Source: Desulfotomaculum sp.
GTDB taxonomy: Bacteria; Bacillota; Desulfotomaculia; Desulfotomaculales; Desulfallaceae
Length of the DNA stretch: 64,000 nt
Direction of reading: 5' to 3'
Assembly: GCA_016841675.1 (NCBI GenBank)
Contig: JAENYQ010000002.1
Location: 62,001-126,000, forward strand
The notes under the pieces were generated by a model. The model saw only the letters and a list, made by a program, of their open reading frames with translations, was not told the DNA's origin and made no database searches. Each line of letters begins with the position of its first letter. Position 1 is the first letter of the stretch. The translations under genes and the position numbers were made by a program. Positions 12,334-16,552 of this stretch are shown here, one piece after another.

Positions 12334-12562
12334 GATTAAGTTTCCTCCTCTGTAAAATCTGGCTTGTACACAATCATTCAGATTTTATCATATTTTTACT
12401 CAAGAAGTACACCTTTATGTTCGGTCATAAATGAAAATACATAAAAATATTTTTTTGATGCCCGGGCTTCCATAAAAATATTATATAAGAATAATAAAGG
12501 AAACAAAAATGTAAAAATTGAATAATTGCACATGCTAATGAAAAGAGAGAAGAGGATATTAC

Positions 12563-13666
12563 ATGCCTGATTCTAAAAAAAACATGAAGTTAACCGGGCT
12601 GACCCAGGTTCCCGGGTGAGCTTCCAAGGTGGGTCCCCACACCCTGTCGCAGGTACTGCGACATATACCAGTCTCCAATGACCCGCGCCTGATGGTCGGC
12701 CTGGAAACCTCGGATGATGCCGCTGTTTACAAGTTAAACGACGACCAGGCACTGATCCAGACGGTAGACTTTTTTACACCCATGGTTGACGATCCCTACC
12801 TGTACGGCCAAATCGCGGCCGCCAACGCACTGAGCGACATCTATGCCATGGGTGGCAGACCGCTTATGGCGTTGAACATAGTATGCTTCCCCGACTGCCT
12901 GCCTCATACGATACTGGAAGAAATATTACGGGGGGGGGCTGAGAAAGTACAGGAAGCGGGCGGCATTATTGCCGGCGGACATACAGTGCGCGATGCCGAG
13001 CCCAAGTACGGACTTACCGTGACCGGCTTGGCCCGGCCCGAACAAATTACCGCCAATGCCGGAGCCAGAGCAGGTGACTTACTGGTGCTTACCAAGCCGC
13101 TGGGTACCGGTATTATCATTACCGGTATCAAAGCGGAAATGGTATCAGAAGCGGCAGTAAGTGTAGCCGCCCAAAGCATGTCCGCTCTGAACAGAGAGGC
13201 ATCCGAAGCCATGCTGCGGCATGGCGCCAAGGCTTGCACCGATATCACCGGGTTTGGACTGTTGGGTCACGCTTCCGAAATGGCCGGCGCCAGCGGGGTG
13301 ACCCTGGAGATTGATTACTCATCTCTGCCGCTGCTGCCCGAAACCATGAACATGGCCCGGATGGGTCTGATCCCCGGCGGAGCTTACGACAACCGGGAAT
13401 ACCTGCGCGGCCGGGTTGAGCTGGACGAGGGTCTTAAGCCCGAGGAACAGATGCTGCTCTTTGACCCCCAAACATCCGGCGGGCTGTTGGTGTCCATCCC
13501 CGCCCCCGGCGCTGAAAAAATAATCAGCGAGCTGGCCGGGGCAGGCATCCATGCCGCTATCATCGGCCGGGTGCTGCCCCGGGAAGAAAAATTAATCAGA
13601 GTGGTGCCTAGTGGTGATAAAGAAGAAGTGGGCACCAAGGCGAAAGGAGAAGTAGGCACCCAATGA
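12563..13666 (+). CDS. selD: Selenide, water dikinase (selenophosphate synthetase), Sec-containing
   Basis: MPDSKKNMKLTGLTQVPG-U-ASKVGPHTLSQVL...; in-frame TGA at 12617-12619 at the catalytic Cys/Sec position; the ORF track starts downstream of the UGA. Confidence 0.94.
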
Positions 13667-14280
13667 ATCATAAAACAGTGGACTGCCGTGGGCTGGCCTG
13701 CCCGCAGCCGGTATTAAATACTAAAAAAGCTATGGAAACAGAAGGTATTGCATCAATAATTACGATCGTTGATAACGATGTTGCCCGCCAAAATGTCATC
13801 TTGTTCGCTAAAAACGCCGGTTATGAGGTGACTGAAGAAGCAAAGGACGACGCATTTCACCTAAATATCAGCCACCCGGGTGAAGCCCTGCCCTCAAAAA
13901 CAGATGGCGGTTATAAACAGGAAACCACACGGTCTGCCGAGTCGGGTCCGGTTTACTTTATCACCACCAACGCCCTGGGGCAGGGTTCCCCGGACCTGGG
14001 CCAGGTGCTTATAAAAAGCCTGTTCACCACCCTGGCGGAGATGAATCCGCCGCCGGCAGCACTGCTGTTTCTTAATACCGGTGTTTTCCTGACCTGTGCC
14101 GGCTCAGATGTGATGAATCAGCTGGAAAAGATGCATGCCTCCGGCACCAGCGTACTTTCCTGCGGCACTTGCCTGGACTATTACAAAATCAATGACAAAC
14201 TTAAAATCGGCTCTGTCTCCAACATGTTTGAAATAAACAACTGGCTTAGCGGACCACACATGGTCACTACCATCGCCTGA
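13663..14280 (+). CDS. yedF: Selenium-metabolism protein YedF (TusA domain + DsrE-like domain)
   Basis: 'VDCRGLACPQPVLNTKKAME' plus C-terminal DsrE-like region; overlaps the selD stop. Confidence 0.92.
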   Translation: MNHKTVDCRGLACPQPVLNTKKAMETEGIASIITIVDNDVARQNVILFAKNAGYEVTEEAKDDAFHLNISHPGEALPSKTDGGYKQETTRSAESGPVYFITTNALGQGSPDLGQVLIKSLFTTLAEMNPPPAALLFLNTGVFLTCAGSDVMNQLEKMHASGTSVLSCGTCLDYYKINDKLKIGSVSNMFEINNWLSGPHMVTTIA

Positions 14281-14389: not shown

Positions 14390-14713
14390 TTAGCGTGTAG
14401 GAGAATTGTTATTTCTTCCTTCACATTTAATTCGAACGGCTTCCGTCGGAGGGCGCTGCGGGGAGTGCACTATAGTCAGGCTGTTATAAATTATTTCTTT
14501 CTCGTATTGTAAACCTTCGTTGTTGTAATACCTTTTCCTTATTTCCACCCTGGGGATAAATACTGAAAACTCGTGGGGCACCGGGATATTTACTCGACGG
14601 GCTAATGTGACCTTCATTTCACCTATTTCGATACTAGCAAAATCATAATTGTTTTGTTTTTCAATATTGTTTTGATATTTAAGCAGAGCCCTTTTTATTT
14701 TAGAAAAAAACAT
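14390..14713 (-). CDS. Hypothetical protein
   Basis: 107-aa ORF with no overlapping competitor; family not recognised. Confidence 0.5.
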   Translation of the reverse strand: MFFSKIKRALLKYQNNIEKQNNYDFASIEIGEMKVTLARRVNIPVPHEFSVFIPRVEIRKRYYNNEGLQYEKEIIYNSLTIVHSPQRPPTEAVRIKCEGRNNNSPTR

Positions 14714-14977
14714 ACTATCTATCTCCCGGCAAATAACACATTTTTAGATGGTTATATTTTATATTTATATAATATTCTATTTACAAGGAAATAGTTACCA
14801 TTTAAAAATTAATCACCAACATTCATCTATTCCTTATTACATTTTCTTATACCCGGCCACATAATTATAAATGACTAGATACCTTATTTAGCTTAAGCTT
14901 TAGCTTAAGCATATTTACAATTCGAAACACTTATGGCATACTTAAAAATAAGCAAATCAAATAATCATTTCGTTTGA

Positions 14978-15080
14978 CCCTGGGAAAAGGGTGCAAGGCA
15001 TGGGACGACTAATAACTGTATAAAGGTAATTTTCGGGTGGGGTCGATACCGGCCACTGCGGAATTTTCCGGCTGCCAGGG
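14978..15080 (+). ncRNA. Candidate riboswitch/structured leader upstream of ion transporter
   Basis: Long-range CCCTGG (14978-14983)/CCAGGG (15075-15080) closing stem around about 90 nt, directly abutting a strong terminator. Confidence 0.5.
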
Positions 15081-15120
15081 GGGGCAGCCAGCATTTGTGC
15101 TGGCTGCCCCTCTATTTTTG
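15081..15120 (+). terminator. Intrinsic terminator / attenuator in leader
   Basis: GGGGCAGCCAGC-ATTTGT-GCTGGCTGCCCC (12-bp perfect stem) then TCTATTTTTG. Confidence 0.85.
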
Positions 15121-15157
15121 TGTCTAATTTTGGTAAGTATTGAGAGGAGAGAAACAC

Positions 15158-16552
15158 ATGACCGAAAGCGTAACTTACTGGGCTATCGCGGTATTTTTAA
15201 TTACCTACGCTATTATTGTATCGGAGAAAATTCATCGAACCGTGGCGGCTTTTGCCGGTGCTGCCTTACTAATGGTTTCAGGGACATTATCCCCTGATGA
15301 TGCGGTACACTATATCGATTTTAATACCATCGGGCTGCTCATCGGTATGATGGTCATTGTCAGTATTACCCGTCAAACCGGAATTTTTGAATTTGTGGCC
15401 ATTCGCGCCAGTAAAATGGCCGGCGGGGAACCACTCAGGGTGATGGCTTCGCTGGCACTGTTAACGGCCGTTTTTTCTGCCCTGCTGGATAACGTCACCA
15501 CGGTACTGCTGATTGTGCCCGTGACACTGGCTATAACCAGAAAACTCATGGTAAACCCGATACCGTTTTTAATTACTGAAATTATGGCCTCCAACATTGG
15601 GGGCACAGCCACGCTAATTGGTGACCCGCCTAACATCATGATTGGCGGGGCAACGCATCTTGGATTTCTGGATTTTTTAATTAATCTGGCTCCAATTGTA
15701 ATTGTGATTTACCCAATTACCTTGCTTATCCTGCTACGTATTTATGGCAAGGAACTTAGAACCACCCCGGAACTCCAACAGCAGATATTAGCAATGGACG
15801 AAAACAAAGAAATTAAGGACCCTGCTCTGCTTAAAAAAGCTGCCTTCGTAATGGCTCTCACAGTTTTAGGCTTTACTATCCATCAGGTGGTGCACCTGGA
15901 GAGTTCAGTTATTGCTTTAGCCGGAGCCGCCCTCTTACTGGCCATATCACGGTTTGACCCTGAACATGCCTTCCATGGGGTGGAATGGCCTGTAATCTTC
16001 TTTTTCGTCGGCCTGTTTATTGTGGTTGGCGGTCTTGAAAAAACGGGTGTAATCGCGGCCGTTGCCCTGTTAGCGTTGGAAACCACGCAAGGCGCTTTAT
16101 TACCGGCAGGCATGTTCATACTGTGGCTATCGGCGCTTGCTTCTTCCTTTGTGGATAATATCCCCTTTGTGGCAACGATGATCCCACTAATTAATGAAAT
16201 GGGCCGTTTGGGATCAATTGAAAATATTGATTTTCTGTGGTGGTCTTTAGCCCTGGGTGCTTGCCTGGGTGGAAACGGTACTATCATCGGTGCTTCTGCC
16301 AACCTGGTAGCGGCCGGTATGGCTGAAAGAAGCGGTGTGCACATTAGTTTTATTGGGTTTTTTAAAGTTGCTTTCCCGCTGATGATCCTATCTATTTTTA
16401 TCGCCATGTTTTATCTTTTAGCCTGGTACCTATATAACCCGGTTACAGTCCGCATCGTTACATTAGCCATCGGTGTCTGTTTATCCCTGATAATCATGAA
16501 GGTAAACGAGCGCTACAAGTCGCAAAGCGCCAAGAGTGATCTTTCAGCCTAA
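15158..16552 (+). CDS. ArsB/NhaD (ion transporter) superfamily permease
   Basis: 'LLDNVTTVLLIVPVTLAI', 'SNIGGTATLIGDPPNIMIG', 'SSFVDNIPFVATMIPLI'; start MTESV chosen over the upstream Met. Confidence 0.88.
   Translation: MTESVTYWAIAVFLITYAIIVSEKIHRTVAAFAGAALLMVSGTLSPDDAVHYIDFNTIGLLIGMMVIVSITRQTGIFEFVAIRASKMAGGEPLRVMASLALLTAVFSALLDNVTTVLLIVPVTLAITRKLMVNPIPFLITEIMASNIGGTATLIGDPPNIMIGGATHLGFLDFLINLAPIVIVIYPITLLILLRIYGKELRTTPELQQQILAMDENKEIKDPALLKKAAFVMALTVLGFTIHQVVHLESSVIALAGAALLLAISRFDPEHAFHGVEWPVIFFFVGLFIVVGGLEKTGVIAAVALLALETTQGALLPAGMFILWLSALASSFVDNIPFVATMIPLINEMGRLGSIENIDFLWWSLALGACLGGNGTIIGASANLVAAGMAERSGVHISFIGFFKVAFPLMILSIFIAMFYLLAWYLYNPVTVRIVTLAIGVCLSLIIMKVNERYKSQSAKSDLSA

Follow-up and report, generated by a model that had tools for sequence, protein, structure and literature searches.

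A rearranged leader of probable Na+-I (DUF1646) riboswitch lineage before a selD-yedF-linked transporter gene in Desulfotomaculum, and nested c-di-GMP-I/Na+-I leaders in its relatives

Introduction

What kind of RNA precedes the CitMHS/ArsB-type transporter gene in this Desulfotomaculum genome, and which of its helices competes with the terminator? A sequence-only reading of the window (the whole analysed stretch of DNA, 64 kb) described a riboswitch-like leader of unassigned class defined by a long-range CCCTGG/CCAGGG stem, and gave Na+-I (DUF1646) as a guess. The aptamer of Na+-I riboswitches overlaps the terminator, and Na+ binding prevents terminator formation, so that the gene is switched on (White et al. 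2022, PMC9337991). In a census of tandem riboswitches, Na+-I was found combined only with c-di-AMP riboswitches (PMC9481103). The analysis reported here indicates that the leader is probably a rearranged member of the Na+-I lineage that acts by transcription attenuation, and that its ligand may have changed.

Results

Anatomy of the leader and the downstream gene

The leader contains a promoter-like site, a folded RNA and then one strong intrinsic terminator before the transporter gene. The features listed below refer to the homologous leader L010 of the sister genome G002 (the window genome is G000), to the alignment A2 of 27 Na+-I sequences from related genomes, and to R1, the covariance model based on A2.

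14914..14942, + strand: probable promoter (TTTACA, 17 nt, CATACT), from a consensus scan
14971..14998, + strand: remnant of a first Na+-I P1 (CGU-UUGACCC...GGGUGCAAGG), from alignment with the first aptamer of L010 and the invariant columns of A2
15032..15119, + strand: second element and terminator, a block conserved in L010 (~94% identity)
15037..15059, + strand: P1-like hairpin of the second element (GUGGGGUCG-AUAC-CGGCC-A-CUGC), from folding; L010 is predicted to have the same fold
15070..15089, + strand: Na+-I-type P2 hairpin (GGCUGCC-AGGGGG-GGCAGCC), predicted antiterminator, from the R1 match (-13.6 kcal/mol)
15078..15119, + strand: intrinsic terminator with a U-rich tail (stem 15078-15113, -34.3 kcal/mol)
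15158..16552, + strand: CitMHS/ArsB-type transporter, 464 aa (PF03600, 321.7 bits)

The -10 region is kept in the sister genome, where pairwise alignment with L010 reveals the conserved block CTTATGGCATA.TTAA.AATAAG.AAATCAAATAA. The sequence-only reading had the CCAGGG strand abut a terminator with a 12-bp stem; a strong terminator is indeed located there and overlaps this strand from position 15078; its stem has 16 pairs, closed by a 4-nt loop and followed by the U-tail. The entire leader including the terminator folds more stably than shuffled sequences (z -4.0) because of the terminator; the part upstream of it, which holds the CCCTGG/CCAGGG stem, does not exceed shuffles in stability (z -0.03). 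The transporter scores below every NCBIfam equivalog cut-off and is therefore not to be named 'ArsB' or 'NhaD'. A 107-aa reading frame on the minus strand (14390-14713) has no NCBIfam match and shares 64% identity with a frame in the corresponding position of G002.

The selD and yedF genes lie directly upstream of the transporter in all five genomes of its clade (G000, G001, G002, G008, G013; window 12560-14277, L315-L318), and this gene linkage suggests a selenium-related role of the transporter. In the window, an upstream ATG and an in-frame TGA (..LTQVPG-TGA-ASKVG..) are found at 12561-12629, hence SelD itself is probably a selenoprotein, with the listed start at 12629 placed too late.

The helix predicted to compete with the terminator

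CCCTGG and CCAGGG are present at 14978-14983 and 15075-15080, respectively, as originally described. A GC-rich stem of six pairs at such a distance occurs in 0.8% of composition shuffles, thus its presence is mildly unusual and not decisive. The counterparts of both strands in the sister genome are C and G runs (CCCCCU/AGGGGG), so that conservation of the stem cannot be judged. Over simulated transcript lengths, the stem is negligible for transcripts ending up to 15101, reaches P 0.03 at 15104, rises to 0.99 at 15110 and is down to 0.04 in transcripts with the complete terminator. The P2 hairpin, in which GGCUGCC (15070-15076) pairs with GGCAGCC (15083-15089), has a probability of 1.0 to transcript end 15101 and of 0 from 15108 in the folding model.

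These profiles bear on the original proposal, in which the long-range stem encloses an aptamer and is a competitor of the terminator. The stem is real and predominates in transcripts ending near 15108-15112; however, the terminator core has already formed at these lengths, the stem is absent before that and displaced afterwards, it coexists with the 12-bp terminator core instead of competing with it, and P2 takes the segment first. We consider this proposal hardly credible. According to the folding model, the stem is only transient, and the helix that truly competes with the terminator is P2 (15070-15089).

Once RNA polymerase has passed position 15090, the P2 hairpin forms first in the folding model and holds the 5' arm of the terminator (15078-15093), which makes the two structures mutually exclusive. 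An overlap of this style, here between P2 at 15070-15089 and the terminator at 15078-15113, is characteristic of Na+-I riboswitches; from this analogy we infer the sign of the response, namely that the window leader would also follow their ON logic.

Relationship to Na+-I riboswitches

Leaders of homologous transporters fall into RF03071 (Na+-I) and RF01051 (c-di-GMP-I) in Rfam scans. The scan with Rfam models that the sequence-only reading had called for identified no known class in the leader: window positions 14700-15400 gave no RF03071 match at E up to 10, only sub-threshold noise, and the same threshold gave only sub-threshold noise in the L010 leader. The relationship to Na+-I emerges with the clade-specific covariance model. 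In the underlying alignment A2, double-sided changes in both helices occupy 53 cells compared with 21.9 in shuffles, and covariation is 0.394 compared with 0.190 in shuffles and 0.08-0.19 in slid controls. Two MAFFT sets made without L010 (A4, A5) were left unused, as their CAAG columns were misaligned.

The best R1 match in the 64 kb is at 15034-15089 (16.0 bits, E 0.0026), followed by a match of 10.0 bits, and no match was found in 159 kb of control loci that included ordinary c-di-GMP-I riboswitch loci. The model matches L010 twice, at 40.9 bits in the first aptamer, which is part of the training set and hence not independent, and at 15.2 bits in the second unit; the latter and the window are outside the training set. 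The invariant GGGNGGG loop of the Na+-I P2 is present in the window hairpin at 15070-15089 (GGCUGCCAGGGGGGGCAGCC), and we regard the two P2 hairpins as homologous. The P1 helices have diverged. The base of P1 is GUUG/CAAG in all 27 sequences of A2, compared with GUGG/CCAC in the second unit; the first unit has UUUG/CAAG, in which the invariant G of GUUG is gone, and R1 has no P1 match at 14971-14998. The segment GGGUGGGG at 15035-15042 was considered as a second Na+ loop and rejected, having neither an R1 match of its own nor a stem common with L010.

The window leader thus resembles Na+-I riboswitches (RF03071, PMC9337991) in a P2 with a C-N-N-GGG-N-GGG loop that overlaps the terminator, in its location before an ion transporter gene and in its match to the clade model. 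It differs from them in the GUGG/CCAC base of P1, a longer linker, the lack of an Rfam match and the wrecked first copy. The Na+-I guess was therefore right as to lineage, given the RF03071 leaders of homologues, the Na+-I-like aptamer of L010 and the P2 retained at the terminator. The window copy nevertheless departs from the standard Na+-I riboswitch. The proposed unassigned class gives way to a rearranged, Na+-I-derived leader whose long-range stem is not the regulatory helix.

Several observations speak against the Na+-I lineage. Besides the missing Rfam match and the missing invariant P1 nucleotides of the second unit, the R1 match consists mostly of P2, which partly doubles as a terminator arm, so some of the likeness could be convergent, and the form is known from two genomes only. 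The G-rich arms of terminators easily give P2-like hairpins, and a plain intrinsic terminator that happens to follow a chance hairpin, with no riboswitch ancestry, would also agree with the lack of an Rfam match. The Na+-I-like aptamer in the sister leader, the specificity of R1 and the conservation of the whole block make such an origin very unlikely.

Comparison with the sister genome and close relatives

The sister leader begins with an apparently intact Na+-I-like aptamer, which has P1 and P2 as well as a separate terminator (-10.9 kcal/mol); the second unit and its terminator come next. In this order, it resembles the tandem Na+-I/c-di-AMP arrangements (PMC9337991, PMC9481103), in which a second regulatory unit likewise comes after Na+-I and brings a terminator of its own; the second unit of L010 and of the window, however, is no c-di-AMP riboswitch but another Na+-I-like element. 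As seen from the alignment with L010, the window has retained the second unit and lacks P2 and the terminator of the first. The remaining first P1 has changed from GUUG to UUUG and from UCAAG to GCAAG, with loss of the near-invariant U before CAAG. Most likely, two consecutive switches existed in the ancestor of the genus, first Na+-I and a terminator belonging to it, then a second P1-P2 unit with the present terminator; having lost P2 and the terminator of the first unit, the window leader would rest its control on the second.

Both P1 copies have lost invariant nucleotides, which makes Na+ binding by the window leader doubtful. The leader could still be a functional Na+ sensor, for example if P1 of the first unit (14974-14996) and the P2 located far downstream (15070-15089) built a single Na+ site, with a hairpin inserted between them. 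Such a site would have CAAG as well as the P2 loop GGGNGGG at its disposal, and homologous transporters are preceded by Na+-I, but the lost G of GUUG, the lost U before CAAG and a distance of ~73 nt between P1 and P2 render this arrangement unlikely.

Between positions 15032 and 15119, the window differs from L010 by a few substitutions and two indels of one base each (~94% identity by our own count on the alignment). Elsewhere, G000 and G002 are 86.3% identical in coding DNA and 69% identical at four-fold sites, a contrast that points to selection on the second unit. In G001 the leader is reduced to hairpins resembling an antiterminator and a terminator, and the orthologues in G008 and G013 have no such leader. 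A DNA search with the leader in 100 relatives yielded a convincing copy in G002 only; other matches of 17-47 nt are due to chance, and the best of them (L041) proved on inspection not to be a leader of this kind.

The pattern of loss fits decay as well as function. A dying riboswitch, in which P2 and the terminator survive as an attenuator that acts constitutively and ligand sensing has ceased, is compatible with the Na+-I lineage and denies present sensing only; the transporter adjoining selD-yedF may have left sodium control. The wrecked first aptamer, the lost P1 invariants, the series G002 > G000 > G001 > G008/G013 and the selD-yedF synteny in 5/5 genomes agree with this scenario, which is a real possibility; conservation of the second unit far above that of four-fold sites argues against it.

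Nested c-di-GMP-I/Na+-I leaders in relatives

Leaders in the nearest transporter clades are c-di-GMP-I riboswitches according to Rfam, and all of them finish on the 3' side with CGACUGCUGGGGGGGGUAGUC or a closely similar sequence. This tail is a Na+-I P2 with G in the loop, a G that also occurs in the Na+-I forms L082 and L087. L020 and L096 align over their full length to R1, a model trained exclusively on Na+-I sequences; the P1 loop then accommodates an insertion of 67 nt, which is the c-di-GMP-I core. R2, a model of the composite leaders of the nearest clades, found one copy in each of 16 genomes at 117-140 bits, with the next matches at 90, 77 and lower; every 117-140-bit locus also encodes a transporter homologue. 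Among ordinary c-di-GMP-I loci read from the R2-carrier genomes, none has a CGACUGCUGGGGGGGGUAGUC-type tail.

The form in these 16 genomes (L014-L017, L019-L021, L023, L026, L093, L095, L096, L119, L169, L239-L254) is derived. It has an extra base in the c-di-GMP pocket (GACGCUAAAGC), AAC in place of CAAG, a run of about eight G in the loop, and C, U or A at the C next to the base of P1, which we take to be position 92 in Vc2 numbering. The ligand may have changed.

The lower R2 matches include an intact nested form, in which a c-di-GMP-I core is flanked on both sides by the signature nucleotides of Na+-I, as in L263: CGUGUUGGGC-[AAACC...GCCAGGC]-GU-CAAGG-AAAUUGACUUUACUGGGGUGGGUAUAGUC. Its carriers are L263, L257, L269, L271, L272, L256, L258, L278, L274 and L255, and in another family of the phylum L295, L296, L312 and L314; the P2 loop of L312 and L314 is more divergent. 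In an alignment of 11 intact nested sequences from several genera (A6), CAAGG and GG.GUGGG are invariant and GUUG is nearly so. The structure is supported by 15 double changes compared with 6.0, and by covariation of 0.198 compared with 0.136 and with at most 0.08 in slid controls. The pattern GUUGRGCAAA...GCCAGG..AAGG has nine matches in 113 genomes, against one for the reversed pattern. Local R1 alignments miss P1 of most intact composites because of the 70-nt insertion, and the evidence for P1 in the nested RNAs comes from the conserved columns of A6 and from the alignments of L020 and L096, which span P1. The phylum scan scored only 8 candidates per genome, so that absence outside the class is not evidence.

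Genes downstream of the nested loci encode the following products; those of L269, L272, L274 and L295 were named by eye via similarity to scanned proteins.

L257, L269, L274, L312: CitMHS/ArsB homologues
L258, L310: TrkA_C and Na+/H+-exchanger family
L255: Na+/H+ exchanger family
L296: NhaB (L295, a close homologue)
L266, L272: formate/nitrite transporter
L271: hydrogenase small subunit
L263: small ion channel

In L204 (G046:C1:1700493-1701128), three consecutive Na+-I aptamers precede one transporter gene, each above the Rfam cut-off.

Since a common UUG/CAA base of P1 and a single P2/terminator serve both nested aptamers, formation of the Na+ site should be favoured by c-di-GMP binding; one would naturally predict an AND-type device.

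Origin of the second unit

In a tree of 72 proteins, the transporter clade of the window (support 100) clusters with both composite clades (21 rows, support 92), and carriers of plain Na+-I stand apart. On this grouping, a plausible origin of the second unit is a composite leader from which the c-di-GMP-I core has been lost; alternatively, the unit may always have been short. The composite-type 3' tail with P2 and terminator is present in the window and scores 18.7 bits, a value attained by 1 of 1000 shuffles, compared with 12.6 bits for the next best site in the 64 kb. The 5' edge (TTTTCGGGTGGGG) is matched in score by 100 of 1000 shuffles with a position matrix and is not significant alone. 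The tail thus supports a composite origin, the edge only weakly. R2 aligns to the edge and the tail only (20.9 bits), and R3, the model of the intact nested form, has no window match at E <= 0.1. The three-helix c-di-GMP-I core (GGCAAA...GACGC.AAAGC) is absent from 14971-15113, with no RF01051 match in Rfam. The window therefore resembles the c-di-GMP-I leaders (RF01051) of the nearest transporters in a weakly similar 5' edge and the same 3' tail, and differs from them in lacking the whole core, which in the relatives sits inside a Na+-I-like P1.

Discussion

We favour a rearranged switch of the Na+-I lineage, in which the second unit is probably a shortened descendant of a nested c-di-GMP-I/Na+-I composite, the c-di-GMP part having presumably been lost. 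More specifically, the second unit could be a compact new aptamer that arose from the two-input riboswitch by loss of the c-di-GMP-I core and change of the P1 half of the Na+ site, with a different ion or anion that matters to the selD-yedF-linked transporter as its present ligand; we regard this as a speculative and rather unlikely outcome.

The nested architecture is apparently undescribed: no published description of Na+-I combined with c-di-GMP-I was found in the open-licence literature, and an earlier report elsewhere is possible. It is not among the two-input arrangements of the census (PMC9481103). The window leader would represent a riboswitch rebuilt between close relatives, with terminator and antiterminator kept and the sensing half changing. 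The nested RNA of the relatives would be a single-platform, two-input device that joins sodium and c-di-GMP signals.
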